From: Bacteroidales bacterium
GTDB taxonomy: Bacteria; Bacteroidota; Bacteroidia; Bacteroidales; UBA932
NCBI GenBank assembly: GCA_017465225.1
Contig: JAFTWQ010000026.1
Span: 62,001-126,000 of the forward strand
Direction of reading: 5' to 3'
DNA: 64,000 nucleotides
The position numbers were made by a program, and so were the translations under genes. Under the pieces are notes generated by a model. The model was not told the DNA's origin and made no database searches. It was given only the letters and a program-made list of their open reading frames with translations. Shown piece after piece: positions 8,623 through 60,684 of this stretch (positions within the stretch are counted from its first letter, which is position 1; every line of letters begins with the position of its first letter).

Positions 8623-8630
8623 TATCTTTG
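8623..8630 (+). promoter_or_regulatory. lepA promoter -7 box
   Basis: TATCTTTG lies 20 bp before the lepA ATG. No TTTG is present at the -33 position. Confidence 0.5.
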
Positions 8631-8650
8631 CACCGATTATACACTTTTAG

Positions 8651-40100: not shown

Positions 40101-40446
40101 AGCTTACAGCGTATATTCTCCATGGGTTCACAGAGTTGACTTCAGCTACAAGCATGATTTCAAGGTGAATATCGGCAAGTCTACCAACACATTGCAGCTT
40201 TGCTTCGATATGAAGAACATCCTTAATATGTTCAATTCTAGCTGGGGCGTTTCTAAGCAGCTTAATCTTGATGTATTTTCAACTGGCGAGGCTCGTATCC
40301 TTAAGTATGAGGGTATGGACAATGAGGGTTATCCTACATTCTCTACAGTCAAGGGCATCGATGGAAACACTCAGAGATTTGCTTACAACCACGCTCTCGG
40401 ACAGTGCTGGTATGCTTCTATCGGTATCAAATACTTGTTTAATTAA
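37141..40446 (+). CDS. Oar-type TonB-dependent outer membrane receptor
   Basis: 1101 residues. Signal peptide 1-23 (SVAAFAQ), carboxypeptidase-regulatory-like domain (about 28-115, GGRVVDANGEPIIGAAVVATHEPSGTVYG), plug (about 120-235, with FTVDGANFNNNFGLNDGLPGGGSPISIDAIEEMQVVISPYDVRQTNFIGGG), then a large beta-barrel ending in GIKYLFN. This is the Oar branch, which lacks a SusD partner. Ligand unknown. A lipoprotein gene starts 12 bp downstream, so the two are probably co-expressed and could work together at the surface. Confidence 0.88.
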   Translation: MKQTIKCLIAAFAAMLMSVAAFAQVTTSALGGRVVDANGEPIIGAAVVATHEPSGTVYGVVTNNDGRYAINGMRSGGPYKVEFSCLGYQSLAYTDVTLQLAETTALNGELNEDSEMLGEAMVIAAAASKFAAEKTGAATNISGSQITSLPTVSRSITDVTRLSPYGGNGMSFAGSDGRTANFTVDGANFNNNFGLNDGLPGGGSPISIDAIEEMQVVISPYDVRQTNFIGGGVNAITKSGTNKFRGTAYVYHQNQDLHGDTVAGTQIDGARAKDMNTTYGFTLGGPIIKNKLFFFVNAELTKKPSVVNRWRGTSVIDENGNGVGDADNYISRTTLADLERVSKFVKDKYGYDTGSWTDFPADESNRKILARIDWNINDNHKLALRYNHTLNRRWSSPNGTSMDGGSRLASYRMSKNSMSYVNSMYSQDNLVNSLSLDLNSRFSDNLSNQLLVTYSQLDDVRGTTSDMFPFIDIKKDGDNYLSLGYELFTLNNGVHNTVATFKDDLTYYAGNHKVVFGLSAEYQMADNVYMRNGTGYYRYNSVDDFINGAAPEVVALTYGYNGEEKPAARVRFYKAGLYAQDDWNVNDNFKLSYGLRLDGLFFNNADVVTNNAILALDYYDDNGNVRHIDTGKWPSANVTVSPRVGFSWNALGDNSLKVRGGTGLFSGRIPLVFFTNMPTNSGSVQYKAALGPSGDKVDMNNFAGGLVVDENGNPTIAALRDKLVSLGYPYSYSPKDGVVPSSIAAVDPKFKMPQVWKTSLAIDYNFPTSFPFSITAEGIFNKTVNAVCASDWSLLPPEGFPKFNGADNRPIFPEGYRQGKKAIVLENTSKGYGWSGNVTVRMQPIEGLSLMAAYTHTVSKEVTGMPGSDAESAMYYVPTVSGINRTGLHNSQYVTPDRVVASATHSDKSGNHFSFIYEAWRGGYNYSYMLTNDMNGDTYTYDSMYIPTDEQVKNGEFRFVSADDANRFLDYVHTDKYLSKNQGKYAEAYSVYSPWVHRVDFSYKHDFKVNIGKSTNTLQLCFDMKNILNMFNSSWGVSKQLNLDVFSTGEARILKYEGMDNEGYPTFSTVKGIDGNTQRFAYNHALGQCWYASIGIKYLFN

Positions 40447-43455: not shown

Positions 43456-43479
43456 CATAATACGTTTACAAAATATTTT

Positions 43480-43511
43480 CAGGCGGCCTTCGGGTCGCCT
43501 GATTTTGTTTT
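43480..43511 (+). terminator. Terminator after the BACON/OB-fold lipoprotein
   Basis: Stem AGGCGGCC-TTCG-GGTCGCCT (43481-43500), closed by an outer C-G pair and followed by ATTTTGTTTT. The T-run supplies the -33 box of the next promoter. Confidence 0.85.
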
Positions 43512-43534
43512 AAAATAATGTATGCATATCTTTG
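43504..43534 (+). promoter_or_regulatory. Promoter of the modular lipoprotein/Omp28 operon
   Basis: TTTG (43504-43507, in the terminator T-run), a 19-bp spacer and TATCTTTG (43527-43534), 28 bp before the next ATG. Confidence 0.7.
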
Positions 43535-43561
43535 TAAAGATAATGCAAAGAAAATCTTGAT

Positions 43562-45526: not shown

Positions 45527-45535
45527 ATCTGATAC

Positions 45536-46396
45536 ATGAAGAAGTTTCTTTCATTGCTTGCGGCAGCAGCCGTATTGTTCATATCATGCTCGGAGAAACC
45601 TCACGAAGGACCGGATGCCGGCGGAGATGCAGTCATTCCGGAACTTCCGGCAGACCCTCAGCCCGGCAGCACGGATTTCTCACACAGGATACTCCTGCTT
45701 CAGCATACCGGCACAGCATGCCCTAACTGTCCTCAGCTGATGGCGCCCCTCAAGGCTCTGGCGGAGGACGATGCATATGCGGATAAATATCAGCACGTTG
45801 CATCCCATTCGTATAATTCTGACGATCCGGCATATTCTACAGCCGCATCCAATCTCTCGCAGGCATTCTGCAGCGGATACTACCCTGAACTCACATTCAA
45901 TCTTACGAAGGAAAACACAGGCACTTCGCTGGCGGTCGACGTGATAAAGTCGCATATAGACAATCTGCATCAGGACGCTGCAGATGCTGGCATAGCCGCC
46001 TCTGTCCGTCAGACAGGCTCCAGCCTTGGAGTGAATGTCCAGGTAAAGGCCGCGAAGGAGAACAAGTACCGCATAGCTGTGTGGGTCCTTGAGGACGGAA
46101 TCAGGGCAAAGCAGGATGGAGCGTTCGACGACTGGATGAATACACACAGCAATGCGATAAGGGTAATGGCCGGAAAGACTCTCAATATGCGCATATATGG
46201 GGAGAATGTCGATGTCCTCAAGAAGGGAGAGACTGCGGAGAAATCCTTCGTGATCGCTTTGGACGACAGCTGGAATGCGGAGAACTGCAAGGTCATGGTT
46301 CTGGTCAATGCCGCAACGGATGACGGCAGGTACAATCTGGCGAACTGCGCGATATGTCCGATAGGAGAGTCTGTATCATATAAATACAATCAGTGA
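45536..46396 (+). CDS. Omp28-like lipoprotein with thioredoxin-like CPNC motif
   Basis: 286 residues. Lipobox LFISC-SEKPHEGPDAGGD. Near residue 55 comes HRILLLQHTGTACPNCPQLMAPLKALAE, a thioredoxin-like CxxC site, as in the Omp28-related family of Bacteroidota. The rest is a beta-rich domain (YRIAVWVLEDGIRAKQDGAF...NAIRVMAG, FVIALDDSWNAENCKVMVLVNA) typical of these proteins. A redox role at the cell surface is possible but not shown. Sits between two related modular lipoproteins; TGATG overlap with the next gene. Confidence 0.7.
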   Translation: MKKFLSLLAAAAVLFISCSEKPHEGPDAGGDAVIPELPADPQPGSTDFSHRILLLQHTGTACPNCPQLMAPLKALAEDDAYADKYQHVASHSYNSDDPAYSTAASNLSQAFCSGYYPELTFNLTKENTGTSLAVDVIKSHIDNLHQDAADAGIAASVRQTGSSLGVNVQVKAAKENKYRIAVWVLEDGIRAKQDGAFDDWMNTHSNAIRVMAGKTLNMRIYGENVDVLKKGETAEKSFVIALDDSWNAENCKVMVLVNAATDDGRYNLANCAICPIGESVSYKYNQ

Positions 46397-47949
46397 TGAA
46401 AAGTGTCAGAGATTTCTTTGTGATTCTTGTGGCCGCTTTTGTGGCTCTTGCATGCGAGCCGCAGAAGGACCCAGCCAAGGTTGACGGTAAATTTGAAATA
46501 GAGGTTTATGACCTTCATTCAAGTCACTGCAAGGTTAAGATCGTTCCTTCTGATCCGGATGCTCCTTATTTCTGCGGAGTGGCGACAGAAGAATACCTGT
46601 CGACCTTCGGTCCGTTGGATGACATGCATGCCACAGCGACCAATTTCATAGAGACAATGCTGCTGGAGAACAGCGACTTGTCAATAAGCGAACTCATGAA
46701 GACCGGGGTGTATGAGCGTGAGGTCACAGGACTTCAGCCGGAACAGTCGTTTGTTGTCTTTGTCTGCTATACAGGTGAAATGGGTGAAATCATATCGGAT
46801 GTGGAATCCCTGACGACGGTTACCCCGGCTCTGGAACAGGTTGACAATTATTTTGAGATAGAGATCGACCAGATAACAGCAACTTCGGCGATGCTGTTCA
46901 TCACTCCATCGACTGACGACGAGTATGTGTGGCTTGAGTTCCCGGAGTTCGTCTACAAGGATATGACAATGGACGAACTTGCGACTTTCCTGGAGAAGAA
47001 CTACAAGCCGTTCTTCGGCCTCCATACGAATACCGGTGAGATGGTGCATTCCTTTGACGGAGTTCTCGACCCGGACACCGAATATATGATAATCGTTTTC
47101 GGATATGACGGAGGATTCACGACACCGCTTGCTACAAAGAAGTTCAGGACTCTTGAGCCTAATGACCCGAAGGATGTGACGTTCGGAATAGAATTGGGCA
47201 CTTTGACCCCGCGCAGCGCCAATGTCACATTCAAGCCATCAGACGCAAGCGTTGCATACCTTGCGATCGTTACCGATGAAGCACGTCTTCTGAAACAGGG
47301 AGGAACTGATGCGGATGCGGTCAAGAAGCTCATTGACAGTCAGATAAGACAGGCGATCGTATTCGGTGATTGCGAAGACCGGGCTGAATTCGCGAAGTAT
47401 TACGCGCATCGTGGCGAGCAGACCGGAGCGTTCTCCATCAAACCTGGCGAAAAGCATTATGCGTGTGCTGTCTGTGTCGACAAGGATGGAAACTTCGCAT
47501 CGGAAGTCGCGATTAAAGAGTTTGACGCTCCTTCGGAGAATGCTACGGATGCTGCAGTGAGCGCTTCGTTGCTTAAATATTTTGATGGTGACGCCCTGGC
47601 TGCTGCCGATCCGGACATGTATGGGGAATTTGCCGGATGGGCGGTGGTACGCCTGAAGTTCGCTCTGGAAAATTCCGCATCGAATGCAGTGTATACGATC
47701 TATCCTGAGCAGATTCTTGAGGAAGAGGGCATCACTGATGAGGAAATACGTGCCATTCTCCTTGATGACGAGTATCTGGGAACATATACCTTCATCGCAG
47801 AAGGCGTGACTGAGGTGCAGCTTGAATGGGGATGCGGATATAGATTGTTCGCCATACCTTTTGATGCTGACGAAAATGCCGGAGAACTCTATTCTCTTGA
47901 CATTCCTGCATTGGATAAAAATGGGGCAGCTCCGGTATCCGAATATTGA
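46396..47949 (+). CDS. Surface lipoprotein with fibronectin-like repeats
   Basis: 517 residues from ATG 46396. Lipobox VALAC-EPQKDPAKVD. Three or so beta-sandwich repeats of the same type as the protein at 43562 (FEIEVYDLHSSHCKVKIVPSDPDAPYFCGVA; FEIEIDQITATSAMLFITPSTDDEYVWLEF; FGIELGTLTPRSANVTFKPSDASVAYLAIV), each followed by a helical stretch and an ExxYxxxVxxYD strand. The two proteins look like duplicates that have diverged. No catalytic motif. Last gene before a terminator. Confidence 0.6.
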   Translation: MKSVRDFFVILVAAFVALACEPQKDPAKVDGKFEIEVYDLHSSHCKVKIVPSDPDAPYFCGVATEEYLSTFGPLDDMHATATNFIETMLLENSDLSISELMKTGVYEREVTGLQPEQSFVVFVCYTGEMGEIISDVESLTTVTPALEQVDNYFEIEIDQITATSAMLFITPSTDDEYVWLEFPEFVYKDMTMDELATFLEKNYKPFFGLHTNTGEMVHSFDGVLDPDTEYMIIVFGYDGGFTTPLATKKFRTLEPNDPKDVTFGIELGTLTPRSANVTFKPSDASVAYLAIVTDEARLLKQGGTDADAVKKLIDSQIRQAIVFGDCEDRAEFAKYYAHRGEQTGAFSIKPGEKHYACAVCVDKDGNFASEVAIKEFDAPSENATDAAVSASLLKYFDGDALAAADPDMYGEFAGWAVVRLKFALENSASNAVYTIYPEQILEEEGITDEEIRAILLDDEYLGTYTFIAEGVTEVQLEWGCGYRLFAIPFDADENAGELYSLDIPALDKNGAAPVSEY

Positions 47950-47970
47950 TACTGATAAACTGTTTTACTT

Positions 47971-48003
47971 CAGACGGTCTCAAAAAGGCCGTCTGATTTT
48001 ATT
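47971..48003 (+). terminator. Terminator of the modular lipoprotein operon
   Basis: CAGACGG (47971-47977) pairs with CCGTCTG (47989-47995), followed by ATTTTATTTT. Confidence 0.8.
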
Positions 48004-48012
48004 TTACTCTTC

Positions 48013-48043
48013 ATTGCTCATAACGGAAAATTCATTATTTTTG
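48013..48043 (+). promoter_or_regulatory. Promoter of the nuclease operon
   Basis: ATTG (48013-48016, one mismatch to TTTG), a 19-bp spacer and TATTTTTG (48036-48043), 60 bp before ATG 48103. Confidence 0.55.
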
Positions 48044-48102
48044 TAAGTTCAAGGGAACTGTCCTTAAGACATTAGGCATTAACAATTTATATGGATTTCA
48101 TT

Positions 48103-50223
48103 ATGGAATTGAGAAGATTTATCTTTGGAGTCATTGCTTCCATGGCGATTTTTGCTGCCTGCGAGCAGGAGGAGCAGAATCTGGGAACTCCAAACCTTAC
48201 CCTCAGCGTGACTGAGATGACCTTTGACGAGGCTGGCGGAAACCAGACCTTGACATTGAATGCGACCCGTGACTGGATGGTCGAGACCAATGCGGACTGG
48301 GTGGTCGTAAACCCTGAATCAGGCTCGGCATCAGCTGATGACCAGACAGTTACGGTGACTGTCCTTGAGAACTCCGGCATGGACCGTGAGGTTGACCTCA
48401 AGTTCACGATCGGCATGAAGAGCAAGTACCTGACCGTATCGCAGGCAGGACCTGGCGGATCGGCAGAGGCTCTTGTGGTATATTACAATGACTATGACAA
48501 GGTCGAGGCTGAAAAAACCTATGGTTCAGGATCAAGCTGGCCATATCTCGATCAGTTCGACGGCTGGATGAATGAGACTGGAACAGGCGCTGCGAATGTG
48601 GAATATTCATACAGCGGAATGTCTGCCCGTGCAAACTCCACATCAAACAGCAACTATTCTGACTATCCGGGATCAGGCAAGAACAACATGTTCTTCGGAA
48701 AGTCGGCATATCTCGCGACAAAGAACATCGCTCTTGGCGGTGCTACCGATTTCACTCTTACATTCGGTACAGAGAAGTACTCACAGGATAACGGAAGCGT
48801 GTTTACAAAGTCCGAGTATCATATCTTTGTCAGCAACGATGCTGCAAAGTGGGTGGAGATTACAGATTACACATTTGCGGGCGAAGGCACAGAAGGCCGC
48901 TGGAACATCGCTACTGCTGATTTCTCGGTTCCTGCCGGCACAGAGAATCTTTCCATCTGCATCAAGGTGGATGTTGCAAGTTCATACCGTATGGACGACT
49001 TCAAGCTTGTCATCTCAGATGGCGGTGCGACAGTTGATTTCTCAAAGGGCGTGGAGATGGATTTCACAGCTGGCGGCAGCACAGGCGGCGGCTCGACAAC
49101 TGCACCGGAATCAAAGGGCAAGAAGACCGTTGAGGAGTTCATCGCTGCAGCGGACAATTCAAACTACTATGAACTTACCGGAAAGGTTTCCGGCTTCAAT
49201 CCGACATACTGCAGCTTTGACCTTACGGATGATTCAGGAAAGATCTATGTATATTCGGTTCTTGATGCAAGCAAGGCCGAATGGACTGACAAGATCTCAA
49301 ACGGCGGAACGATCACAATCTACGGAAAGTACCTCTACTATGAGCAGAAGTCCCAGCATGAGGTCGTGGATGCATACATCGTAAGCTTCAAGGCTGACGG
49401 AAGCGGTTCGACAGGAGGAAACGAGAGCGAAAAGCCGGAGTCTCTTATCAAGGCTACCGTTGCAGACTTCCTCGCGGCTCCGGAAAGCTCTGACACATGG
49501 TATGAACTCACCGGCGAGATCACATCCATCGTTTCCGGAAATGCATATGGAAACCTTCATATCAATGACGGCACAGGCGAAGTCTATATCTATGGCCTTA
49601 CAAACGGCTGGGTTGGATATAATGACAAGTCATTCAACAGCATCGGCCTCAAGGTAGGCGACACAGTGACCCTCGGTACCCTCAGGGGCTCCTACAACGG
49701 TGAGCCGCAGGGAGGCGGAAGCAAGGTTCCTGCATACTATATCAGCCATGTTCCAGGCGAAGGCGGATCGACCGGAGGTGGAGACGTTTCTGACGCTTCA
49801 TGGTCATATACATTCGCGGAAGGAGACCTTGGTTCTACAGGCTCATTGCTCGAAAACGTCACTTTGAACGGCGTTACATGGACATTTGTGATGAATGATG
49901 CTGATTTCCTCGGATATGATTCGCAGAATGGCCGTGGCCTCCAGATGGGAAAGAAAGCTGATCCGGCTTCATCTATCTCTCTGTCAACTGACGGCATCAG
50001 CGGAACAATCAAGAAGATGGTGATCAATACATCAGGCGCTTCAGGTACTGATGCAACGCTTGTAGTCAAGGTCGGCGGCTCGGAATTCGGTTCGCCGGTC
50101 AAGACAACCAACTCTGCTGCCGATTATGTGTTTGAAGGTTCGGCTTCAGGCAAGATCGAGCTCAACTGGACTCTTTCTGCGGCAGCTGTCTATATCAAGA
50201 GCATAGCAGTATATACAGAATAA
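48103..50223 (+). CDS. BACON/jelly-roll/tandem OB-fold surface lipoprotein of the nuclease operon
   Basis: 706 residues. Lipobox FAAC-EQEEQN; the acidic residues after the cysteine resemble the Bacteroidota surface-export signal. Order: BACON (about 30-115; LTLSVTEMTFDEAGGNQTLTLNATRDW), a jelly-roll-like domain (125-312; ending FSVPAGTENLSICIKVDVASSYRMDDFKL), two OB-fold-like domains (about 336-432 and 447-549; VADFLAAP...WYELTGEI...YGNLHINDGTGEVYIYGL) and a C-terminal jelly-roll (560-706). Such OB domains accompany extracellular nucleases, so nucleic-acid binding is plausible. The stop overlaps the nuclease gene start (TAATG), so the two are translated together. Confidence 0.75.
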   Translation: MELRRFIFGVIASMAIFAACEQEEQNLGTPNLTLSVTEMTFDEAGGNQTLTLNATRDWMVETNADWVVVNPESGSASADDQTVTVTVLENSGMDREVDLKFTIGMKSKYLTVSQAGPGGSAEALVVYYNDYDKVEAEKTYGSGSSWPYLDQFDGWMNETGTGAANVEYSYSGMSARANSTSNSNYSDYPGSGKNNMFFGKSAYLATKNIALGGATDFTLTFGTEKYSQDNGSVFTKSEYHIFVSNDAAKWVEITDYTFAGEGTEGRWNIATADFSVPAGTENLSICIKVDVASSYRMDDFKLVISDGGATVDFSKGVEMDFTAGGSTGGGSTTAPESKGKKTVEEFIAAADNSNYYELTGKVSGFNPTYCSFDLTDDSGKIYVYSVLDASKAEWTDKISNGGTITIYGKYLYYEQKSQHEVVDAYIVSFKADGSGSTGGNESEKPESLIKATVADFLAAPESSDTWYELTGEITSIVSGNAYGNLHINDGTGEVYIYGLTNGWVGYNDKSFNSIGLKVGDTVTLGTLRGSYNGEPQGGGSKVPAYYISHVPGEGGSTGGGDVSDASWSYTFAEGDLGSTGSLLENVTLNGVTWTFVMNDADFLGYDSQNGRGLQMGKKADPASSISLSTDGISGTIKKMVINTSGASGTDATLVVKVGGSEFGSPVKTTNSAADYVFEGSASGKIELNWTLSAAAVYIKSIAVYTE

Positions 50224-51419
50224 TGACAAGATTCATTTCAATATCCAAGGTTGCAGCGGTCGTGATGGCCTTCTGCACCTTGGCTGTATCTTCCTGTGCG
50301 AAGCCGGTGGAGGAAAAGGATGTCCTTGAGGTGTCCGTGAAGACTCCTTCCGTGGCTTCGGGCAAGGGACAGATGTTCGTGAATGTCAGGTGCAATACAT
50401 CGTGGACTCTTATCCTTATGGATGCTGAAGACGACTCGGACATAGACTGGGCCAGCCTGAACATCGACTCGGGAAAGGGCAACATGAGCAATGTGATCCT
50501 TTCATATCAGGTCAATGACTCAGAGGACAGCCGCAGGCTCAAGATCGTTCTCGACAATGGCAGCAGGTGGACATCATGTATGGTTGAACAGGCAGGATCG
50601 GGCCAGCAGCCAGAGCCGGAACCGGATCCGGTTCCGCAGCCTGATACGGACCTGGCCAAGGTGTCATGGCTGGAACTTCCCGCTATGGACAATCCTGACC
50701 TCGGCTATTACAGCTACAGCTTCGAGATGAACGGGAAGGAGTACCGCAATTATTCATTCGGCTGGAGCCAGAAGGACCTTGTGGCGCTCTGGATGGCATA
50801 TCCGCTCTGCTCGATGTATACCAACAAGACCGTCAGCCGTACCGATGCATGGGCATATGACCCTATTCTCGGACCGGAATATTCTCCCGCTCCTTTCGGC
50901 GGATACGGCGGCTCGTATGCAAGAGGCCATCAGGTCCCATCTGCCGACAGGCTCTGCAGCTACAATGCCAATGTCCAGACCTTCTATGGATCGAACATGA
51001 CGCCTCAGCTCAATGCCCATAACGAGGGCATCTGGCAGACACTGGAAAGCAAGGTGCGTACCCTGGCCAATACATCCGACACTACATATGTGGTGACCGG
51101 ATGTGTTGTCGACGGCAGCACTACATTCACCCAGGATTCCGACGGAAAGAAGATGACCGTGCCTGTGGGCTACTACAAGGTCCTTCTCCGTTACAGCAAG
51201 TCTTCGACCATAAGCACATGGGCGGCGATGGCGTTCTATACCGAACACAAGAGCTATAGCGGCAGCACTTCTCTCAGAAGCCTGGCCATGTCGGTGGATG
51301 AGCTTGAGGAAATGCTCGGGATGGATTTCTTCGTGAATCTTCCTGCAAAGCTCGGTGAGGAACGTGCTGCGGCATTGGAAGCCGAAGACCCTCTGACAAA
51401 CTCCATCTGGGGTCTGTAA
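50223..51419 (+). CDS. DNA/RNA non-specific endonuclease lipoprotein
   Basis: 398 residues. Lipobox AVSSC-AKPVEEKD places it on a membrane, probably the outer surface. A BACON-like N-terminal domain (about 30-125) and a Pro/Glu linker (PEPEPDPVPQPD) precede the beta-beta-alpha-metal nuclease domain (about 150-390). Catalytic signature YARGHQVPSADR (general-base His near residue 236, the DRGH position) and the metal-site segment NMTPQLNAHNEGIWQ. This family cuts single- and double-stranded DNA and RNA. Coupled to the OB-fold lipoprotein upstream; the EEP nuclease follows 17 bp later. Confidence 0.9.
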   Translation: MTRFISISKVAAVVMAFCTLAVSSCAKPVEEKDVLEVSVKTPSVASGKGQMFVNVRCNTSWTLILMDAEDDSDIDWASLNIDSGKGNMSNVILSYQVNDSEDSRRLKIVLDNGSRWTSCMVEQAGSGQQPEPEPDPVPQPDTDLAKVSWLELPAMDNPDLGYYSYSFEMNGKEYRNYSFGWSQKDLVALWMAYPLCSMYTNKTVSRTDAWAYDPILGPEYSPAPFGGYGGSYARGHQVPSADRLCSYNANVQTFYGSNMTPQLNAHNEGIWQTLESKVRTLANTSDTTYVVTGCVVDGSTTFTQDSDGKKMTVPVGYYKVLLRYSKSSTISTWAAMAFYTEHKSYSGSTSLRSLAMSVDELEEMLGMDFFVNLPAKLGEERAAALEAEDPLTNSIWGL

Positions 51420-51436
51420 AACAGAAATTCAAATCA

Positions 51437-52513
51437 ATGAAAAGGATATTATATACCCTGACAGCCCTGGTGCTTTTCTGCACCTGCGCTTATGCCCAGA
51501 AGGGCGAAAAGAACTATGTCATCGGATTCTACAACCTTGAGAATCTGTTCGACACATACGATGACCCTGCAAAGAATGACGAGGAGTTCCTTCCGGAAGG
51601 AAAGAACAAATGGACTGAAGCAAAGTATCAGAAGAAGCTTCAGAACATGGCCAAGGTCATAAGGTCCATGAAGGAGGAAAACGGTGCATGGCATGCTCTG
51701 CTCGGTGTTTCCGAGATCGAGAACAGGCTTGTGCTAGAGGATCTTGTCATGGAGCCGCAGATCGCTGAAGCCAATTATCAGATCGTGCATTATGACGGAC
51801 CGGACAGACGTGGAGTGGACGTTGCTCTGCTCTATAAGCCGGAGGTGTTCAGATTCATTGAAAGCGAATCTATTCCGTTCACATTCGAGGGCAGCTCGAT
51901 CGACTGGATCCAGACGCAGGAGGAAAGGGACTATTTCCGTACCCGTGACATACTCATGGTGCATGGAACCATCGACGGCGAGCATTTCGCGATATATGTA
52001 GCCCATCTTCCATCGCGTGCAGGCGGAAAGAAGGGCGGCAATCAGCTTCGCGACCGTGGCGGCGAGATCATGTATGAGCATGCGATGAAGATGCAGGAGA
52101 AATACCCCGGAATCAAGATCGTGTGCATGGGTGACATGAACGACAACCCTACAGACACATCGATGGCCGAGTATCTCCACGGCAGGGAGTTTAAGGAAGA
52201 TGTTACTGACAAGGACTTCTTCTCTCCGTTCACTTCAATGCTCAAGGCTGGATTCGGCTCGCTCGCATATCAGGGAGTATGGAGCATATATGACCTCCTT
52301 CTGGTCAACAATGCCCTTGCAAACCCTCAGGAGGGCACTTTCGGCCTTCGTCAGCTTCACAAGAAGGGTTACTATGGACGTATCTATAACCCTAAATTCC
52401 TGACCAACCAGAAAGGCCAGTACAAGGGTACTCCGTTCAGGACTTTCTCTAACGGAGCCTTCATCGGAGGCTATAGCGACCATTATCCGACTTACATCGT
52501 AATCACTAAATAG
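51437..52513 (+). CDS. Secreted endonuclease/exonuclease/phosphatase family protein
   Basis: 358 residues with a type I signal peptide (1-20, CTCAYAQ), so soluble and periplasmic or exported. DNase-I-like fold: GFYNLENLFDTYDDP (metal-binding Asn/Glu), GVSEIENRLVLEDL (catalytic Glu), FAIYVAHLPSRAGGK, VCMGDMNDNPTD (D-x-N) and GGYSDHYPTYIVI (SDH). The family cleaves phosphodiester bonds in DNA, RNA or nucleotides. Following a surface nuclease, a role in trimming the products is plausible. Confidence 0.9.
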   Translation: MKRILYTLTALVLFCTCAYAQKGEKNYVIGFYNLENLFDTYDDPAKNDEEFLPEGKNKWTEAKYQKKLQNMAKVIRSMKEENGAWHALLGVSEIENRLVLEDLVMEPQIAEANYQIVHYDGPDRRGVDVALLYKPEVFRFIESESIPFTFEGSSIDWIQTQEERDYFRTRDILMVHGTIDGEHFAIYVAHLPSRAGGKKGGNQLRDRGGEIMYEHAMKMQEKYPGIKIVCMGDMNDNPTDTSMAEYLHGREFKEDVTDKDFFSPFTSMLKAGFGSLAYQGVWSIYDLLLVNNALANPQEGTFGLRQLHKKGYYGRIYNPKFLTNQKGQYKGTPFRTFSNGAFIGGYSDHYPTYIVITK

Positions 52514-52518
52514 AAAAA

Positions 52519-52582
52519 AGATTCTTCGCTGACGCTCAGAATGACAGTGTTTATTGTCATCCTGAACGAAGTGAAGGATCTT
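52519..52582. repeat. Two inverted family B repeats forming a long hairpin
   Basis: An inverted copy (52519-52545, AAGATTCTTCGCTGACGCTC...) and a direct copy (52556-52582, GTCATCCTGAACGAAGTGAA...) face each other across about 10 nt. Together they can form a stem of more than 20 bp in the spacer between the EEP nuclease and the TonB receptor, which may limit read-through or protect upstream mRNA. Confidence 0.75.
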
Positions 52583-52597
52583 CATAACTAGAATCAA

Positions 52598-55552
52598 ATG
52601 ATGAAGAAAACATTACTATTCATTGCGGCGATGCTTTGCTCACTGTCCCTCTTCGCACAGAAAAGCGACTGGGGAGGCGTGAAGGGTACGGTCGTGAACC
52701 GTGCCGGCAGGGCTCCGGTTCCTGCTGCCGCAATCACACTCTCCCAGGGAGGCGAGACCGTGGCTTCCGCCGTGTCTGACGCCGAAGGAAAGTTCCTTAT
52801 CGAGGCGCTTCCGAACGGCATGTATGATATGACCATCAAGGCTGTCGGCTTCCTGGATGCAAATGTGAATGTGACCGTCGAAGGCTATGTGAAGGACCTT
52901 ATCTTCGTAGGTATGGTCATGGAACAGGTTGTCACCGATGTCGATGATTCTAACTTCGCGGAGTTCGATATGGACGATTCAGGCTTTGAAGATGCTCCTT
53001 CGATCCTTTTCGACAGCAACGATCCGTTCACCAACATCGCGAGCTTCGGCTTCAGCAACATCCGTTTCAAGAACAGGGGATACACAAATGAATCCCAGGA
53101 CGTGTACCTCAGCGGCATAAGGATGAACGATGCCATCACAGGCTATTCTCCATATTCCCTCTGGAGCGGTCTCAACGAGGCCATGAGGAGCAAGGAGACC
53201 ACCATTGGAAACGAGGTGTCTGACTATGGCTACGGCGGATACAACGGAGTGACGAACATCCATGCTATGCCTTCAAGCGTCCGCACAGGCTGGCGTTTCA
53301 GCGCACTTACCAACAGCGCCCTTTACCGTCTCCGCCTTATGGCTACATATGCTTCCGGCGAGCTTGACAACGGCTGGTCATATGCATTCAACGTTTCTGC
53401 CCGTATCGGTGGAAATGACTGGGTGAAAGGAGTCTACTACCGTAACTTCGCATATTATGCCGGCGTCGAGAAGAAATTCGGAGACATCCATCGCATCGGC
53501 CTTGTGACCTTTGCGGCTCCGGGCCAGCGTGGCGCGCAGAACGCATCTACCCAGGAGGTGTATGACCTTATGGGGGACAATATGTACAACAGCAACTGGG
53601 GTTATCAGAACGGCAAGGTCCGCAACTCCCGTGTCCGCAAGACATTCGAGCCTGTGACCATCCTGAAGTACACCGTGACCCCTTCTGACAATGTCGAGGC
53701 TTCCGCTACATTGCTCTGGCGTACCGGAAAGAACGGATATACCGCAATGGACTGGTATGACGCAGCTGACCCGCGTCCGGACTATTACCGCAATCTTCCT
53801 AGCTACTACTGGATGGACAACAAGGACTACGGAAGATTGAATTTCGAGAAGGCGGCATGGGCAAAGGATGCATGGATCAACGATATCCCTGAATACACTC
53901 ATCTGAACTGGGACCGTCTCTACAACGTCAACTGGAACAATTACGATGCTGACGGACTCCGCCGCTCTAAATATGCGGTCGAGGAGCGTCGCGTCGATCA
54001 GAACGACATCAATCTCAACGCAAGCGTCAAGTGGATGGCGTCAAAGATCTTCACCCTTACCGGTGGTGTGAACTATAAATGGAACCGCACGGAATATTAC
54101 AAGAAGATGGATGATCTTCTCGGCGGTGACTATTATCTGAACATCGACCAGTTCGCGGAGCGTGATTTCGCTTCGTCTCCTACAATGGTGCAGAACGACC
54201 TTGATTATTTCCTTGAGCATGGTGAGGCAAAGGCCCTTAAGGAAGGCGACAAATACGGATATGACTATTATGCCCATGTCCGCAATGCCAATGTATGGGC
54301 AAACGGCGCTCTCGATCTCGGAGGATTCAAGGCCAACCTTGCATTGGAGGCGGGATATGCGAAGTTCTGGAGGGAAGGTCTCGTGAGGAAGGGCCTCTTT
54401 GCAGGACTCGACGAGAATGGAAACGAGATGATGTATGAGGGCAAGGTGCTTACCACATACGATGAAAAGACAGGCAAGGCCCTCACTTCAAAAGGAAATT
54501 CTGAAATTGCAGACTTCCTTACATATTCAGCGAAGCTCGGACTTCAGTATCATTTCGAGGGTGGACACAGGATCTATGCAAACGGAGCATATTTCAATGA
54601 TGCCCCTACATTTGCGCAGTCGTTCATCTCTCCACGTACAAGAAACTCGCTGGTTCCGAACCTGACTACAGTGAAGACAGCCTCTGCCGATCTCAACTAT
54701 CAGTACAGCAACAACGGCTATAACTTCCGTATCACAGGATTCTGGACCAATATCGCTGACCAGACCGACATGATGAGCTTCTATGATGACTCGCAGAACT
54801 CATTCGTGAACTTTGCCATGAACGGAATCGACCAGAGGCATCTCGGTCTCGAGATGGGCTTCAAGATCCCGCTTCCTGTGCAGGGCCTTTCTGTTGCCGG
54901 AGCGCTCAGTTGGGGTGAGTACATATATACATCCACTCCTCGCATGACCATGACGGTCGACAACAGTGCAGAGCTTGTATACGATGACCAGCCTGTACCT
55001 TACTGGGCCAGCAGCCCTGTCTACAGGAAGACAGTAATGGACGGCGAAACCGTCTATGAGACAGACCTTAACGGAGATCCTGTTGTCGAAAGGTACCAGA
55101 AACATTATGTTCCTTCAACTCCTCAGCTTGCAGCTGACCTCGGACTCAACTACAGGACAAACTCGTACTGGTTCTTCGAACTTCATGCGCAGTATTTCGC
55201 GAAGTCATATCTTGACATGAACCCTCTCTACAGGACTGACTGGATCGTGGCCGGTCCGGACTGGAACATCACTCCTGTAGAGGTGGAGGACCTTACAGGT
55301 CAGGAATGTTTCGCTCCTGCATTCCTGCTCAATGCGAGCATCGGAAAATCATGGTACATCGACCGCAAGTACAACTTCGGATTCTCTCTCAACCTTCAGA
55401 ACATCACCAACAACCGCAACGTGAGGACCGGAGGATATGAAGGAACCCGTCTTGCCGACAGCGAGACCATGGAGAGATACTACAAGTTCGATTCGAAGTA
55501 TTTCTACATGCAGGGATTCAACTACATGCTGAACCTTTATTTCAGATTCTAG
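52598..55552 (+). CDS. TonB-dependent receptor of the nuclease locus
   Basis: 984 residues. Signal peptide 1-20 (SLSLFAQ), carboxypeptidase-regulatory-like domain (about 25-110), plug (about 125-240; NIRFKNRGYTNESQDVYLSGIRMND with a positive-inside GYGGYNGVTNIHA stretch) and a large barrel ending FNYMLNLYFRF with terminal Phe. It is distinct from the Oar-type receptor upstream and has no SusD gene beside it. A DUF5689 lipoprotein gene follows. Given the two nucleases upstream, oligonucleotides or nucleosides are candidate ligands, by inference only. Confidence 0.88.
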   Translation: MMKKTLLFIAAMLCSLSLFAQKSDWGGVKGTVVNRAGRAPVPAAAITLSQGGETVASAVSDAEGKFLIEALPNGMYDMTIKAVGFLDANVNVTVEGYVKDLIFVGMVMEQVVTDVDDSNFAEFDMDDSGFEDAPSILFDSNDPFTNIASFGFSNIRFKNRGYTNESQDVYLSGIRMNDAITGYSPYSLWSGLNEAMRSKETTIGNEVSDYGYGGYNGVTNIHAMPSSVRTGWRFSALTNSALYRLRLMATYASGELDNGWSYAFNVSARIGGNDWVKGVYYRNFAYYAGVEKKFGDIHRIGLVTFAAPGQRGAQNASTQEVYDLMGDNMYNSNWGYQNGKVRNSRVRKTFEPVTILKYTVTPSDNVEASATLLWRTGKNGYTAMDWYDAADPRPDYYRNLPSYYWMDNKDYGRLNFEKAAWAKDAWINDIPEYTHLNWDRLYNVNWNNYDADGLRRSKYAVEERRVDQNDINLNASVKWMASKIFTLTGGVNYKWNRTEYYKKMDDLLGGDYYLNIDQFAERDFASSPTMVQNDLDYFLEHGEAKALKEGDKYGYDYYAHVRNANVWANGALDLGGFKANLALEAGYAKFWREGLVRKGLFAGLDENGNEMMYEGKVLTTYDEKTGKALTSKGNSEIADFLTYSAKLGLQYHFEGGHRIYANGAYFNDAPTFAQSFISPRTRNSLVPNLTTVKTASADLNYQYSNNGYNFRITGFWTNIADQTDMMSFYDDSQNSFVNFAMNGIDQRHLGLEMGFKIPLPVQGLSVAGALSWGEYIYTSTPRMTMTVDNSAELVYDDQPVPYWASSPVYRKTVMDGETVYETDLNGDPVVERYQKHYVPSTPQLAADLGLNYRTNSYWFFELHAQYFAKSYLDMNPLYRTDWIVAGPDWNITPVEVEDLTGQECFAPAFLLNASIGKSWYIDRKYNFGFSLNLQNITNNRNVRTGGYEGTRLADSETMERYYKFDSKYFYMQGFNYMLNLYFRF

Positions 55553-55557
55553 CGCTT

Positions 55558-55584
55558 GTCATCCTGAGCGTAGCGAAGGATCTT
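55558..55584. repeat. Family B repeat before the DUF5689 gene
   Basis: A single copy (GTCATCCTGAGCGTAGCGAA...) occupies the receptor-DUF5689 spacer, ending 3 bp before the ATG at 55588. It is in the same orientation as those at 32751 and 52556. Confidence 0.8.
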
Positions 55585-55587
55585 AAA

Positions 55588-56637
55588 ATGAATATTATGA
55601 AGAGAGTATATACATTAATCATTGCTGCAGCGGCGCTCTTCGCAGGATGCGAGGAGTTCCAGCCTGTGTTCACAGGCAAATATCCCGATCCCCAGGAGCA
55701 GTACATCTATACTGACGCAGACTTCGGAAAGTTCACATCCATCGCTGATGTGAAGGCGATGTATGCCGAGAACGGCAATAAGCCGTATGTGGTGGAGAAG
55801 AACTGCGTGATCAAAGGCCAGGTGACCACATCCGACCAGGTCGGCAACCTTTACAAGAGCCTTTACATCCAGGACGAGACAGCCGGAATCGAGATAAAGA
55901 TCGGAAAGAACGGCCTTTACAACGAGTACAAGCTCGGACAGTGGCTCTATATAGACTGCTCCGGCCTTACAGTCGGCGACTACAACGGCATGATCAATAT
56001 CGGCTATGAGGACCCGACAGGGGAGTATGAGACCGGTTATCTCGAGCATGCATACATCATTGACCAGCATGTGTTCAAGGGCGAGTATGGCGATCCTGTA
56101 CAGCCTGTCGTGATCACTGAAGCTGACCTTCACAAGGAGGTCAATCTCGGCCGTCTTGTGACAATCAAGGACCTGAAGTATGACAACCATATCTTCATCC
56201 TTGCATATGTAGATCCTAACGGAAACAGGAAGGACTATAACAACAACGGCATCTTCATCGATGAGGAAGGTCCGGACAATTACGGAGTGACCACATGGGC
56301 ATGTTCGGAGCAGAAATGGAAGGAATACCTTCTTGCCGGCAATTTCGACAGCGTCGAGGCGGCAGGAACAACAGTCGGTGAGCTGCTCAGGACTACCGGC
56401 ATCGGATCCATGGCATATTCGGTGAGCCAGTATTTCAGGATGGGCAAGACCGATGTGCAGGTGCGTTCGAGCGGATATGCGCGCTTCGCGGACACAGAGA
56501 TCCCGCAGGATGTGCTTGACGGCAAGGCTACCGTATCTTTCACCGGCATCCTTACCGAGTACAAAGGTGCAGCCCAGTTCACCCTCATCGACCTTGACGG
56601 CGTCAGAAAGGCCGACGGAACCCCTTGGTATGAATAA
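55588..56637 (+). CDS. DUF5689 domain lipoprotein
   Basis: 349 residues. Lipobox LFAGC-EEFQPVFTG. DUF5689 region about 45-250: VVEKNCVIKGQVTTSDQVGNLYKSLYIQDETAGIEIKIG is an OB-fold-like unit with the typical IKGxVTTSDxxGNxYKxLYIQD signature. LGRLVTIKDLKY, QYFRMGKTDVQVR and VSFTGILTEYKGAAQFTLIDLDGV complete it. The family is found beside TonB receptors and nucleases in Bacteroidota; its function is not established. The stop region overlaps an ATG of the next frame (ATGAATAA). Confidence 0.85.
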   Translation: MNIMKRVYTLIIAAAALFAGCEEFQPVFTGKYPDPQEQYIYTDADFGKFTSIADVKAMYAENGNKPYVVEKNCVIKGQVTTSDQVGNLYKSLYIQDETAGIEIKIGKNGLYNEYKLGQWLYIDCSGLTVGDYNGMINIGYEDPTGEYETGYLEHAYIIDQHVFKGEYGDPVQPVVITEADLHKEVNLGRLVTIKDLKYDNHIFILAYVDPNGNRKDYNNNGIFIDEEGPDNYGVTTWACSEQKWKEYLLAGNFDSVEAAGTTVGELLRTTGIGSMAYSVSQYFRMGKTDVQVRSSGYARFADTEIPQDVLDGKATVSFTGILTEYKGAAQFTLIDLDGVRKADGTPWYE

Positions 56638-56650
56638 AACAACCCGAAAT

Positions 56651-58657
56651 ATGAAAAAAATACTACTGATTACAGCAATCATCATGGCAGCGGTATCCTG
56701 CAACACAAACAATCCTTTCCTCACAGGATGGGACACACCTTACGGAATTCCAGACTTTACCCAGATCCAGGAGAAACATTACATCCCTGCAATCGAGATG
56801 GGTATCCGTCAGCAGCAGGGAGAGATCGATGCTATCATCGCCAATCCTGATGCACCTACATTCGAGAATGTCGTCGAGGCTTACGAGCGTTCTGGCGCCA
56901 TCCTTGACCGTGTCTCAATGGTGCTTTTCAACATCTCCGAGTCTGATGCGACCGAGTCGCTTCAGAAGATCGTCGAGGAGGCTCTCCCTCTCATCTCTGT
57001 CCACAGCGACAATATCTTCATGAACCCTTATTTCTTCAAGAAGGTCGAGGCTCTCTACAGCCAGATCGATGAACTCGGTCTCAATCAGGAGCAGAAGATG
57101 ACCCTCAAGAAGCTCTACAATGCGTTTGTGAAGAACGGTATCGCCCTTGGCGAGGCCGAGCAGGCACGTATGCGTGAGATCAACATGGAGCTTTCATCTC
57201 TCGGAAACACATTCGGAAACAACCTTCTCGCCGAGAACAACGCATTTGCGGAGGAGTTCGGTGTGTCTGTTTCTGAGTATGGCGAGGCTATGGCAGCGAC
57301 AGAGGACCGTGCTGTCCGTGAGAAGATGTTCAAGGCTTATGCATCACGCGGAAACAACGACAACGAGTATGACAACAAGGAGCTTATAGTGAAGATGATG
57401 GCTCTCCGCATCGAGAAGGCCAACCTTCTTGGATATGACACTCCTGCAGCTATGATCCTTGCCGACAAGATGGCAGGCGATCCTCAGACTGTGGATACAT
57501 TCCTTTCAAGCATCATGGCTCCGGCAGTGGAGAAGGCAAAGGAGGAGATCGCTGACATGCAGCTTGTCATGGACGAGGACATCAAGGCAGGCCTTCTTCC
57601 TGAAGGCAGCGTGATCGAGCCATGGGACTGGGCATATTACACAGAGAAAGTGCGCAAGGCAAAGTACGCCCTCGACGAGGAGCAGACAAAGCCGTACTTC
57701 CAGATGGAGAATGTACGTCAGGGTGTGTTCGACCTTACTACAAAGCTCTTCGGCCTTCAGTATGAGAAGCTTGAGGATATTCCGGTGTATCATCCGGAGG
57801 TGGAGGGATTCAAGGTCACTGACGCCGACGGCTCCCTTATCGGAGTGATCCTTACCGACTATTTCCCGCGCAGCACAAAGAGAGGCGGTGCATGGATGAC
57901 CAACTTCGTGAACCAGGAGGTTCTTGACGGCGAAGACATCCGTCCTGTCATCGTGAACGTCGGAAACTTCGCAAAGCCTACAGAGGATAAGCCTTCGCTT
58001 CTTACCCTCGACCAGGTGGAGACTCTTTTCCATGAGTTCGGACATGCGCTTCACGGACTTTTGAGCCAGTGTACATACAAGAGCGTGAGCGGTACATCAG
58101 TGGCACGTGACTTCGTCGAGCTCCCTTCACAGATCATGGAGAACTGGGCATTCCAGAAGGAGGTCCTTGCAGGCTATGCACGTCATTATGAGACCGGCGA
58201 GGTCATTCCGGATTCGCTCGTAGCGAAGATCGAGGCTGCTGCAAACTTCAACCAGGGCTTCATGACCACCGAGCTTGCTGCTGCATCGATCCTTGACATG
58301 AAATGGCATGAGCTTACTTCTGCCGAGGGACTCGACCCTATGGCATTCGAGGAAGCTGCATGCAAGGAGATGGGCCTCATCGACGAGATCATCCCACGCT
58401 ACCGCAGCACATATTTCGCCCATATCTTCAGCGGCGGATACAGTGCAGGCTATTACAGCTACCTCTGGGCAGAGGTGCTTGACAAGGATGCATTCGAGCT
58501 CTTCATGCAGAAGGGAATCTTCGACAAGGAGACTGCGATGTCATTCCGCCGCAATGTCCTCGAGATGGGCGGCAGCGACGAACCTATGGATCTCTACCGC
58601 CGTTTCCGTGGCGCAGATCCGGATTCTGGCGCGCTTCTTCGCGGACGCGGACTTTAA
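56651..58657 (+). CDS. M3-family metallopeptidase lipoprotein (Dcp-like)
   Basis: 668 residues from ATG 56651; an earlier ATG at 56630 overlaps the DUF5689 stop. Lipobox MAAVSC-NTNN, so envelope-attached, unlike cytoplasmic Dcp. Zinc site VETLFHEFGHALHGLLSQC near 460, with the downstream Glu segment (FVELPSQIMENWAF). The C-terminal ending YRRFRGADPDSGALLRGRGL is typical of peptidyl-dipeptidase Dcp. It would release dipeptides from peptides in the periplasm or at the surface. The 3' end overlaps the convergent CotH gene by 4 bp. Confidence 0.9.
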   Translation: MKKILLITAIIMAAVSCNTNNPFLTGWDTPYGIPDFTQIQEKHYIPAIEMGIRQQQGEIDAIIANPDAPTFENVVEAYERSGAILDRVSMVLFNISESDATESLQKIVEEALPLISVHSDNIFMNPYFFKKVEALYSQIDELGLNQEQKMTLKKLYNAFVKNGIALGEAEQARMREINMELSSLGNTFGNNLLAENNAFAEEFGVSVSEYGEAMAATEDRAVREKMFKAYASRGNNDNEYDNKELIVKMMALRIEKANLLGYDTPAAMILADKMAGDPQTVDTFLSSIMAPAVEKAKEEIADMQLVMDEDIKAGLLPEGSVIEPWDWAYYTEKVRKAKYALDEEQTKPYFQMENVRQGVFDLTTKLFGLQYEKLEDIPVYHPEVEGFKVTDADGSLIGVILTDYFPRSTKRGGAWMTNFVNQEVLDGEDIRPVIVNVGNFAKPTEDKPSLLTLDQVETLFHEFGHALHGLLSQCTYKSVSGTSVARDFVELPSQIMENWAFQKEVLAGYARHYETGEVIPDSLVAKIEAAANFNQGFMTTELAAASILDMKWHELTSAEGLDPMAFEEAACKEMGLIDEIIPRYRSTYFAHIFSGGYSAGYYSYLWAEVLDKDAFELFMQKGIFDKETAMSFRRNVLEMGGSDEPMDLYRRFRGADPDSGALLRGRGL

Positions 58658-60684
58658 TCGTTGTTCTTGACGTAACCGTCGAACTTGACCAGACGCTCTT
58701 TGATCGTGTTCTTCATGAACTGCACTTCAGCGTCGTATGAGCCGAGAGCCTGGAAGTTCATGTGGACCTTATAGTCCAGGATCTTCCATCTCTTGAAGTT
58801 CAGTTCCTGAGATTCATGAAGCAGGGCGGCGGTCTCGTCAACATATGCAGGGAGGTCTTTGAGGCCTCCCTTTTCGTATGCCTCCTCCCATATTTCAGCG
58901 AGCATCTTCCTTGCTTCCGGATCCTTCTTCACTATCCTGTCCGTCATCTCCCGGACTGCGTCGCTTGCAGGAGACGGCACGGTGATGTAGATGAAATCAT
59001 TGTTTGCGTTTATAGGATATGACCTGTAGTCATTGTCAAATGAAAGGTCATGGTCCCATGTCGGGCCGGTGTATAGCACTCCGTCCTCGGCATCCTTGTA
59101 CATGTACACGCTCCAGAGGAGGTCGGTGTTGCCGCAGAAATCGCCGATCAGAAGGTTGCGGAGGAAACTTTCTATATCGAGATATTTCCTTAAACCATTG
59201 TCCGGATCAGCAAAGTCCGATCTGTGGGCAGCCGATTCCATCTGATTGAAGAAATTCTCGATATGGCTTCTCTGAGCCTGGGTGCAGTCTTCCTCGTCGG
59301 GATGCTTGATGGTGACAGGCGTTCCCTTCCATGACCAGAAACAATGGGTCTCCTTCCATGCATATGCATCAATCTCAATGAGATAGCCGTCCTTCGCAGG
59401 CACCCTGTCCTTTGCGGCCTCGACCTGGTCGCAGAGCTGATAGCATCCTCTATATTCACCGTTCACTACGAGGTCGACGGGACGGCAGTATGGAGTGAAT
59501 GCGGCTCCGAACAGCCTGCTGACCTTGAATGCTATGATGTTCCTCATCAGGGTCTTGTCGCTGTAATTGCTGATGAGGGTCCATTTCTTTGCCGAAGCAG
59601 GGGCATCCAGCGGACTCTGCTTCTTGTCGAACTTGAGCCTGTAAGGCTTCTTTGGGAACTGGTCCCAGCTTGCGTTTCCGCGTCCTCGCACGCCTGTCTC
59701 GCTTGTTGCAAGCAGGTTGGTACCGTTTTCGGAGATTATATACACATTGCTGGAAATCTCATTCTCCTTCGATACGATGTCCTGAGCGTTAGCGGTATTG
59801 ATGATGACTGTCGGAAGATTCGTTATCTGATAAAGTCTTGAATCGTCTCCCTCGTCTGCATATCCATGAAATTCCAGCTCCGCAAGATTGCACCTGACGT
59901 CGTTAGGGGAAACATACCGGACATATCTGAATCCTCTGGAACAGTAGGTGTCTTCGTAGGTCATCTGCCTCTCCGGAGCCGGCCGCTTGATCATATGTAT
60001 AGGAATGGCGTCGCTGAAGTCCGGCTTGTTCGCACCCTCGATCATGGCCAGCTCCACTCTGCCTGGCTGTGTGATGCGCGGCGAATATCCTACCTTGGTG
60101 ATCACATGCTTCTTTCCCAGATCAAGGCCTACCCATGTGCCTGAACGGTCGTATGAAGCGAAGTAAGTGTCATAGTTACCGTCAAAGACATTGGTCTTGA
60201 TGTTGACCGTTGTGGATTTCTGACTGTTAGAGTAGTCAACAGAATAAACGCTTCCGATGACGGTTCCGGACAGTTTCGCCGGCATCGGCTTCGGCTTTTC
60301 GGCTGTGCTTACCTTTGTGGAGTCTTTTGTCCATATCCTGTTGCCTTCCCTGTCGTATGCCCATCCCCAGAAATAGTATTGAGTCTCGCTCGGAAGTCCG
60401 TCAACGGTAACTTCATGGCTTCCGTCAGAAGGGGTTCCATCCACGCTTATGGCTCTTCCCATTGTCTTGTATGCCGTTTCGCTGTATGTGACACCCCATC
60501 TGGTATATATGTCCAGATCCTCGCCCTTTGCGGAAAGGGTGAGGGTAATGGACTCGGAAGTGCTCCTGACATTTCCTATGGTAAGGGTGATGTCAGGCTT
60601 CTTCGCGTCTTCGGGTTCATGAATGTCCTTGCATCCGCAGACCGCAAGCGTAGCTGATGTCAGTAAAAGGAAAAATCTCTTCAT
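58654..60684 (-). CDS. CotH-kinase domain lipoprotein with FN3 and F5/8C-like domains
   Basis: 676 residues. Lipoprotein signal (lipobox around TLAVCGC, followed by KDIHEPED). A fibronectin-like domain (about 30-130), a coagulation-factor-5/8-like carbohydrate-binding domain (about 145-275; NVFDGNYDTYFASYDRSGTWVGLDLGKK), then a CotH domain (about 290-640) with VRGRGNASWDQFPKKPYRLKFDKK and the catalytic-type WDHDLSFDND. CotH proteins are atypical kinases of spore-coat proteins; in Bacteroidota they are secreted and of unknown role. It follows the GH92 gene by 7 bp, suggesting a function tied to glycan binding. Confidence 0.85.
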   Translation of the reverse strand: MKRFFLLLTSATLAVCGCKDIHEPEDAKKPDITLTIGNVRSTSESITLTLSAKGEDLDIYTRWGVTYSETAYKTMGRAISVDGTPSDGSHEVTVDGLPSETQYYFWGWAYDREGNRIWTKDSTKVSTAEKPKPMPAKLSGTVIGSVYSVDYSNSQKSTTVNIKTNVFDGNYDTYFASYDRSGTWVGLDLGKKHVITKVGYSPRITQPGRVELAMIEGANKPDFSDAIPIHMIKRPAPERQMTYEDTYCSRGFRYVRYVSPNDVRCNLAELEFHGYADEGDDSRLYQITNLPTVIINTANAQDIVSKENEISSNVYIISENGTNLLATSETGVRGRGNASWDQFPKKPYRLKFDKKQSPLDAPASAKKWTLISNYSDKTLMRNIIAFKVSRLFGAAFTPYCRPVDLVVNGEYRGCYQLCDQVEAAKDRVPAKDGYLIEIDAYAWKETHCFWSWKGTPVTIKHPDEEDCTQAQRSHIENFFNQMESAAHRSDFADPDNGLRKYLDIESFLRNLLIGDFCGNTDLLWSVYMYKDAEDGVLYTGPTWDHDLSFDNDYRSYPINANNDFIYITVPSPASDAVREMTDRIVKKDPEARKMLAEIWEEAYEKGGLKDLPAYVDETAALLHESQELNFKRWKILDYKVHMNFQALGSYDAEVQFMKNTIKERLVKFDGYVKNND

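Follow-up and report, generated by a model that had tools for sequence, protein, structure and literature searches.

The stretch of 64,000 nucleotides analyzed here (the window), from a bacterium of the order Bacteroidales (GenBank assembly GCA_017465225.1, contig JAFTWQ010000026.1), carries one complete operon of five genes on the + strand (48091-56637; genes A to E) that is probably a TonB-powered DNA-uptake module. Its core, comprised of an EEP-fold nuclease (gene C), a TonB-dependent receptor (gene D) and a DUF5689 lipoprotein (gene E), would be the order's version of the RS04910-RS04915-RS04920 triplet of the duck pathogen Riemerella anatipestifer. The two genes that precede the core encode a BACON/OB lipoprotein (gene A) and a DNA/RNA non-specific endonuclease of the NUC family (gene B). 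A preliminary description of the window had named these same five products, with which coordinates and Pfam matches agree, and had read the operon as a nucleic-acid analog of a polysaccharide utilization locus whose receptor imports small products. By analogy with Riemerella, the cargo is most likely DNA and not only nucleosides, because the counterparts of the receptor and the DUF5689 protein are each essential for transformation in that species. What the sequences show directly is gene content, homology, linkage, co-inheritance and conserved active-site residues.

The comparison begins with a transposon screen for natural transformation in R. anatipestifer (PMC8459023). In the portion of that report available to us, RA0C_RS04915 is a CarboxypepD_reg outer-membrane protein and RA0C_RS04920 is a DUF5689 protein, and markerless deletion of either one brought natural transformation below detection, making each essential. 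We took the locus from another strain, CCUG25054, via an exact match to the published comEC primer. One stretch there holds recA, dinB and sdh genes (read by eye), comEC, two further genes, and an EEP gene divergent from a 935-amino-acid receptor that is followed by a 469-amino-acid DUF5689 protein. We take the last three to be RS04910, RS04915 and RS04920, with tags counted by fives from RecA (RS04870) and ComEC (RS04895). The protein beside the receptor is the single DUF5689 match in the CCUG25054 genome. Receptor profile A1 scores the Riemerella receptor counterpart at 667.5 bits and the next receptor as two pieces of 199 and 141 bits. The window receptor is nearer the RS04915 counterpart than other Riemerella receptors, and the two form a joint clade in the receptor tree (support 0.947) against four paralogues as outgroup. 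Pairwise identity between window and Riemerella is 28% for the receptor (E=2e-99), 27% for EEP (E=4e-57) and 32% over 149 amino acids for DUF5689 (E=3e-16).

Both loci therefore feature a CarboxypepD_reg receptor followed by a DUF5689 lipoprotein, with EEP beside them and the receptors in the same clade. They differ in arrangement: in Riemerella, EEP is divergent, comEC is close and no NUC was seen in the 19.5 kb fetched, whereas in the window NUC and a BACON/OB lipoprotein belong to the same operon as the core, and comEC lies on another contig. The Riemerella DUF5689 protein also ends in a choice-of-anchor J tail that is absent from gene E. A cas9-like gene (1400 amino acids, by eye; L129, 14211-18410) lies two genes past the Riemerella DUF5689 gene. 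No newer account of the module was found in the literature searched, which mostly omits subscription journals.

Conserved linkage, on which the preliminary description staked its proposal, was found within the genus and well beyond it. Among 25 sampled genomes of the genus, 16 (the window's own and 15 others) carry the full receptor at 57-100% identity, and the order NUC, EEP, receptor, DUF5689 on one strand is kept in 15 of the 15 other loci; an additional genome (L140) shows the same arrangement. The nine remaining genomes are without a full receptor (G019 has a weak piece alone). DUF5689 above 62 bits was found in none of these nine, and EEP (51-55% identity) is retained in four of them. 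In L132, EEP adjoins the M3 peptidase gene, with receptor and DUF5689 gone; L133 reads NUC-EEP-M3; L131 holds a 530-amino-acid receptor remnant with the N-terminal regulatory domain (7172-8761) and no DUF5689; and L134 ends at a contig edge. These loci look like natural deletions, and their structures indicate that receptor and DUF5689 are absent together and that the nucleases can remain. Genes in the receptor-less loci, as in the 29 non-genus and 20 order loci described below, were called as longest non-overlapping ATG frames only, so that genes can be missed (the NUC of L132 was recovered by tblastn and not by gene calling).

Across the class, profile A1 was run over 296 genomes, and 72 harbor a first-tier receptor (at least 500 bits), with paralogues scoring lower. 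DUF5689 at 80 bits or above is present in 72 of the 72 receptor genomes versus 0 of the 224 others, with both thresholds chosen after the tables were seen and with 33 of the 296 genomes that have only weak DUF5689 matches counted as negative (matches outside the first tier end at 64.9 bits). The DUF5689 gene lies downstream of the receptor, on the same strand and within 3 kb, in 70 of the 72; the exceptions are G114, with DUF5689 on another contig, and G139, with a receptor fragment and DUF5689 on another contig. These genomes are not independent, and the families that hold both states (f25, f41, f50 and f56) still agree. The 29 loci examined outside the genus contain the receptor (29), DUF5689 (28) and EEP (25), the last mostly divergent from the receptor, and the next family reaches at most 4 loci. 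Neither EEP nor a clear DUF5689 partner of their own was found in any of 14 loci of lower-scoring receptor paralogues; the stretch of one (L105) reaches the first-tier locus of the same genome, and another (L116) has an 18-bit DUF5689 match. Together, gene order in the genus and the class survey rule out chance linkage of the module genes.

Among records of a plasmid collection, the window's LepA is closest to those of Phocaeicola, Bacteroides and Parabacteroides (76-77%) and Prevotella (74%), and reaches 72.5% with Riemerella, in keeping with a place in Bacteroidales and Bacteroidia. Within Bacteroidales, a wider profile (A3) matches 125 of 247 genomes at E<=1e-100, and 121 score at least 650 bits. 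For 20 of these loci, selected on score and on the room their contigs offered, DUF5689 comes after the receptor every time, and EEP is adjacent in 16, divergently in 13 of them. Named records came from a protein search of the plasmid collection, which found receptor D relatives in six records, and the best four of the six were considered: in 4 of 4, receptor, DUF5689 and at least one nuclease stand together. Bacteroides finegoldii (L162) encodes NUC, a fimbrillin-like gene, receptor, DUF5689 and EEP, all on one strand; Prevotella sp. oral taxon 299 (L163) encodes receptor, DUF5689, an OB protein and NUC; Flammeovirga (L164) encodes EEP, receptor and two DUF5689 genes, the last annotated as an endonuclease; and Aureibacter (L165) encodes receptor, two DUF5689 genes and endonuclease I. 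The modules of Flammeovirga and Aureibacter are annotated on large plasmids. The published statement that receptor homologues are limited to Flavobacteriaceae, as it stands in the available text of PMC8459023, disagrees with these surveys, in which the receptor occurs in about half of the 247 order genomes and in named Bacteroides and Prevotella.

The wide core is thus EEP, receptor and DUF5689, and NUC accompanied the module in loci of the window's order alone. Of the four-family co-occurrence suggested earlier, three families hold widely and the NUC part is confined accordingly. NUC shares a single operon with the module in the window's family, where two more genera (L141 and L142) have this form too, and in L081 and L082; the receptors of this form make up one clade in the tree (printed support 1.0). 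It lies close by in another arrangement in L098, L114 and L159. Among first-tier class loci, NUC is near the receptor in 4 of 5 from the window's order versus 0 of 20 others. The conserved linkage with nucleases does favor the earlier view that nucleic acid is the substrate.

Gene A (48091-50223, +, 710 amino acids) encodes a lipoprotein (by eye) with a BACON domain (PF13004, E=3.3e-10) and two OB-like repeats (OB PF01336, E=3e-5, 24.3 bits, slightly below the cut-off of 27), and is a candidate surface DNA-binding subunit. Judged from its relatives, it is probably a second DUF5689/OB-type lipoprotein, because the protein in the gene A position carries a DUF5689 domain in L141 and L142, from other genera of the family, and in L082 (family f18), with E-values of 1.7e-23 to 6.7e-29. 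The L141 and L142 counterparts also match BACON, and the OB repeats of gene A align to DUF5689 with hhalign probabilities of 37 and 59. A likeness of gene A to the whole Riemerella DUF5689 protein was not found by BLASTP; the OB part alone resembles DUF5689, weakly. The notion that OB/BACON genes are specific to nucleic acids was not upheld, because a similar gene follows the Oar/SusC-like receptor upstream of the operon.

Gene B (50223-51419, +, 398 amino acids), likewise a lipoprotein by eye, features an Endonuclease_NS domain (PF01223, E=1.4e-34), and its relatives in PDB are EXOG and the Anabaena-type and Serratia nucleases. Residues R234 G235 H236, N258, N267 and E275, presumably catalytic, are the same in all 13 NUC proteins aligned. 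The PF01223 domain and this RGH/Asn/Glu active site place it in the same family as Serratia nuclease, Anabaena NucA and EXOG, from which it differs in being a lipoprotein, in its BACON-like N-terminal region and in its linkage to a putative DNA-uptake receptor. The pneumococcal DNA-entry nuclease EndA belongs to the NUC superfamily. Gene C (51437-52513, +, 358 amino acids) has a Sec-type signal (by eye) and an Exo_endo_phos_3 domain (PF19580, E=4.7e-95). Its residues N33, E93, E95, H190, D233, N235, D348 and H349, to which we ascribe the catalytic role, are invariant in 18 of 18 proteins, Riemerella included, and the domain together with these Asn, Glu, Asp and His residues places it among the EEP nucleases by sequence. 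Profile searches for solved-structure relatives of EEP or DUF5689 returned none that were useful.

Gene D (52598-55552, +, 984 amino acids) encodes the TonB-dependent receptor of the Riemerella RS04915 clade, with a CarboxypepD_reg domain. The protein itself has no Pfam plug match, and its assignment as a receptor comes from aligned relatives, 26 of 41 of which hit the TonB Plug domain at E<=1 (best 2e-9). Among solved structures, the receptor D profile finds OprC over the barrel, along with N-terminal-domain proteins, and only weakly in either case. Gene E (55588-56637, +, 349 amino acids), the constant partner of the receptor, lies directly downstream on the same strand and carries DUF5689 alone (PF18942, E=1e-44), with no C-terminal choice-of-anchor J / DUF5017 tail. 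Short forms also occur in L047, L081, L082 and L114, and the tail, being variable, does not define the DUF5689 partner. Anti-phage defense was considered for DUF5689 and rejected, the domain giving just a weak 18.7-bit PADLOC match. In L085 (11148-13373), the gene after the module fuses DUF5689 to a PLD-type nuclease with a type IX secretion system tail, and clustered relatives of this gene are found in L096 and L097.

The operon resembles a SusC/SusD polysaccharide utilization locus in joining surface lipoproteins, enzymes and a TonB-dependent receptor. It differs in that the operon proteins include no SusD, no SusC signature in D and no carbohydrate enzyme. No SusD or SusC-family signature was matched among these proteins, which rules out plain membership in such a locus. 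The earlier suggestion that the receptor imports small products in the polysaccharide-locus manner fares poorly on the same count and because the Riemerella counterparts are transformation-essential; a feeding role in the window's clade is possible.

We propose the following route. The OB/DUF5689-type lipoproteins A and E would catch extracellular DNA, and nuclease B would trim it at the surface. E would then pass it to receptor D, which would import it through the outer membrane with energy from TonB. In the periplasm, EEP enzyme C would degrade the DNA, or one strand of it, and the product may enter nucleotide scavenging and/or transformation with a tandem helix-hairpin-helix (HHH) protein, ComEC and DprA. 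Within this scheme we infer that DNA is the cargo, in which direction and order the steps proceed, which parts are at the surface, what EEP does and what the module is for in this clade. The fairest reading is that the importer in the window's clade serves feeding, transformation or both.

The competence genes themselves offer a place for EEP, a candidate strand-degrading nuclease. The window's own genome encodes ComEC and DprA as well as an anchored tandem-HHH protein that resembles a candidate from Riemerella, presumably RS02645. The Lactamase_B domain of ComEC has been proposed as the degrader of one strand (PMC6299819, available in part). No Lactamase_B match was found in the three ComEC proteins examined (L121, a Riemerella frame of 389 amino acids from the first ATG, and the window's own genome), which leaves room for EEP in this role; among the three, DUF4131 is matched only in L121. 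As far as its available text goes, PMC8459023 terms the strand-degrading protein unidentified and names no EEP nuclease, its two mentions of an endonuclease being cloning enzymes. In L121, a single run holds comEC, folC, TonB, ExbD, ExbB, one gene, DUF5689 and a receptor divergent from EEP (the TonB match is weak, and folC, ExbD and ExbB were read by eye). ComEC adjacency as a general rule was rejected: among the 72 receptor genomes, 71 of them with ComEC, it lies within 10 kb of the receptor only in G269, and at about 26 and 32 kb in G197 and G042. Mutation of tonBA or of tonBB lowers transformation in Riemerella, and the authors attribute the tonBB effect to iron (PMC8383284, available in part).

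Several observations weigh against DNA uptake as proposed here. Support for it in this organism comes from sequence and from the Riemerella comparison, across which identity is just 27-32%. An adjacent EEP was not detected in 4 of the 29 non-genus loci and 4 of the 20 order loci, and a 952-bit receptor (L049, genome G025) stands in a 14.6-kb contig without DUF5689 or EEP. ComEC and DprA are kept in all nine genus genomes without a full receptor, and tandem-HHH in 5 of 7 examined genomes without the receptor versus 7 of 8 with it, so the presence of competence genes does not follow that of the receptor. In this genus ComEC is also short: of the 24 other genomes, 23 have frames of 351-406 amino acids and one has the gene split over two contigs. 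The protein is cut within the Competence domain, where matches end at about 220-250 of 270 (as in L122, 5516-6619). The list of markerless deletions made in Riemerella, in the accessible portion of PMC8459023, does not include EEP. Flavobacterium johnsoniae carries the homologues, according to the same portion, and was not transformable under the conditions tried (PMC7965970, available in part). Transforming DNA would not survive a surface nuclease, a point in favor of feeding. Finally, the Riemerella DUF5689 protein falls in the NCBIfam M949_1556 family (590.8 bits; cut-off 475), and a mutant of that gene is described, in the part of the source at hand, for lipopolysaccharide (LPS) antigenicity and pathogenicity, so that loss of the Riemerella gene may be pleiotropic.

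That report is also what favors a second explanation, namely that receptor and DUF5689 are envelope-maintenance or surface-glycan proteins and that Riemerella lost transformation indirectly. We regard this as improbable: in PMC8459023, as available, each of the two clean deletions brings transformation below detection, whereas loss of another TonB-linked receptor gene (RS09840) has no effect and loss of the lipoprotein acyltransferase gene RS08100 lowers the frequency about tenfold. An envelope role also sits poorly with the conserved nuclease neighbors and with the occurrence of DUF5689 in fusion with a PLD nuclease and, next to NUC, with BACON. A purely nutritional system, in which surface nucleases cut DNA or RNA and the resulting oligonucleotides, nucleotides or nucleosides enter through the receptor as a source of carbon, nitrogen or phosphate, with no part for transformation, has more in its favor and is still unlikely. 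Two nucleases with conserved active-site residues share the operon with the receptor and lipoproteins, receptors of the NUC single-operon form group in one clade, and L131 and L132, which lost full D and DUF5689, still carry a nuclease cassette together with an Oar/SusC-like receptor of its own. That same persistence suggests that the cassette works without receptor D and DUF5689; moreover, the D/DUF5689 pair stands without nearby NUC in most other sampled lineages, it is transformation-essential in Riemerella according to the part of PMC8459023 available, and a nucleoside-salvage family is absent among the proteins scanned. Several BACON/OB/Fn3-like lipoprotein genes do stand in series in this region, as expected of a run of unrelated secreted lipoproteins with no joint function, but gene order kept in 15 of 15 same-genus loci and a core triplet found across the class leave that idea only the slimmest chance. 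A DNA-uptake module accordingly remains our preferred reading of the operon.

The borders of the operon and its neighbors complete the description. A strong intrinsic terminator of the upstream operon (47970-47996, +; 11-pair stem and T tail) sets the 5' limit of the unit. It is followed by a promoter-like TTG-N19-TATTTTTG of the Bacteroidetes type (48014-48043, +; TTG at 48014-48016, 19-base spacer, TATTTTTG at 48036-48043). The preliminary description had one promoter followed by translationally coupled genes A and B: the TAATG overlap of the two genes (50221-50225) makes coupling plausible, and the promoter is weak evidence because the loose pattern matches 13 times in 64 kb. A REP-like spacer hairpin precedes the receptor gene (52511-52597, +; -32.2 kcal/mol, z=-5.4), and a related copy follows that gene (55559-55584) with a fold that is not stable (z=-0.8); the repeat has 2 copies in the window versus 0 expected. 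No Rfam match to a structured RNA was found within 43000-60000.

Gene E is followed, in the same orientation, by a Dcp-like M3 peptidase lipoprotein gene (56651-58657, +; PF01432) that the preliminary description did not mention and which likely starts at 56651, 13 bases past gene E, with an in-frame ATG at 56630 also possible. It clusters in 12 loci of the genus versus 0 of 29 loci outside, and is probably a genus-specific neighbor and not part of the module's function. Upstream, an Oar/SusC-like receptor (OMP_b-brl_4; 37141-40443, +) and its partner, a BACON-OB lipoprotein (40459-43452, +), form a possible second receptor pair of the neighborhood. In 9 of 20 same-genus stretches, the BACON-OB/NUC genes have a receptor related to this one (29-73% identity) on their upstream side. 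Many of the 20 stop short of that position; the nine include L131 and L132, both without full receptor D.

To our knowledge, how Bacteroidota bring DNA through the outer membrane is largely unknown. As a bolder and more doubtful extension of our proposal, Bacteroidota might widely share a TonB-receptor/DUF5689 DNA importer that replaces type IV pili, with EEP as the nuclease that supplies ComEC with single strands in the periplasm, and one clade of the order might have re-wired it with a surface nuclease for eating DNA. Bacteroidota are abundant in the gut and the sea, and a two-gene transformation unit of one duck pathogen is here found spread over the class. Receptor and DUF5689 always co-occur in our class sample, and their third partner, EEP, offers a candidate for the strand-degrading nuclease. 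Overall, gene acquisition and DNA feeding in Bacteroidota become testable through gene removal.

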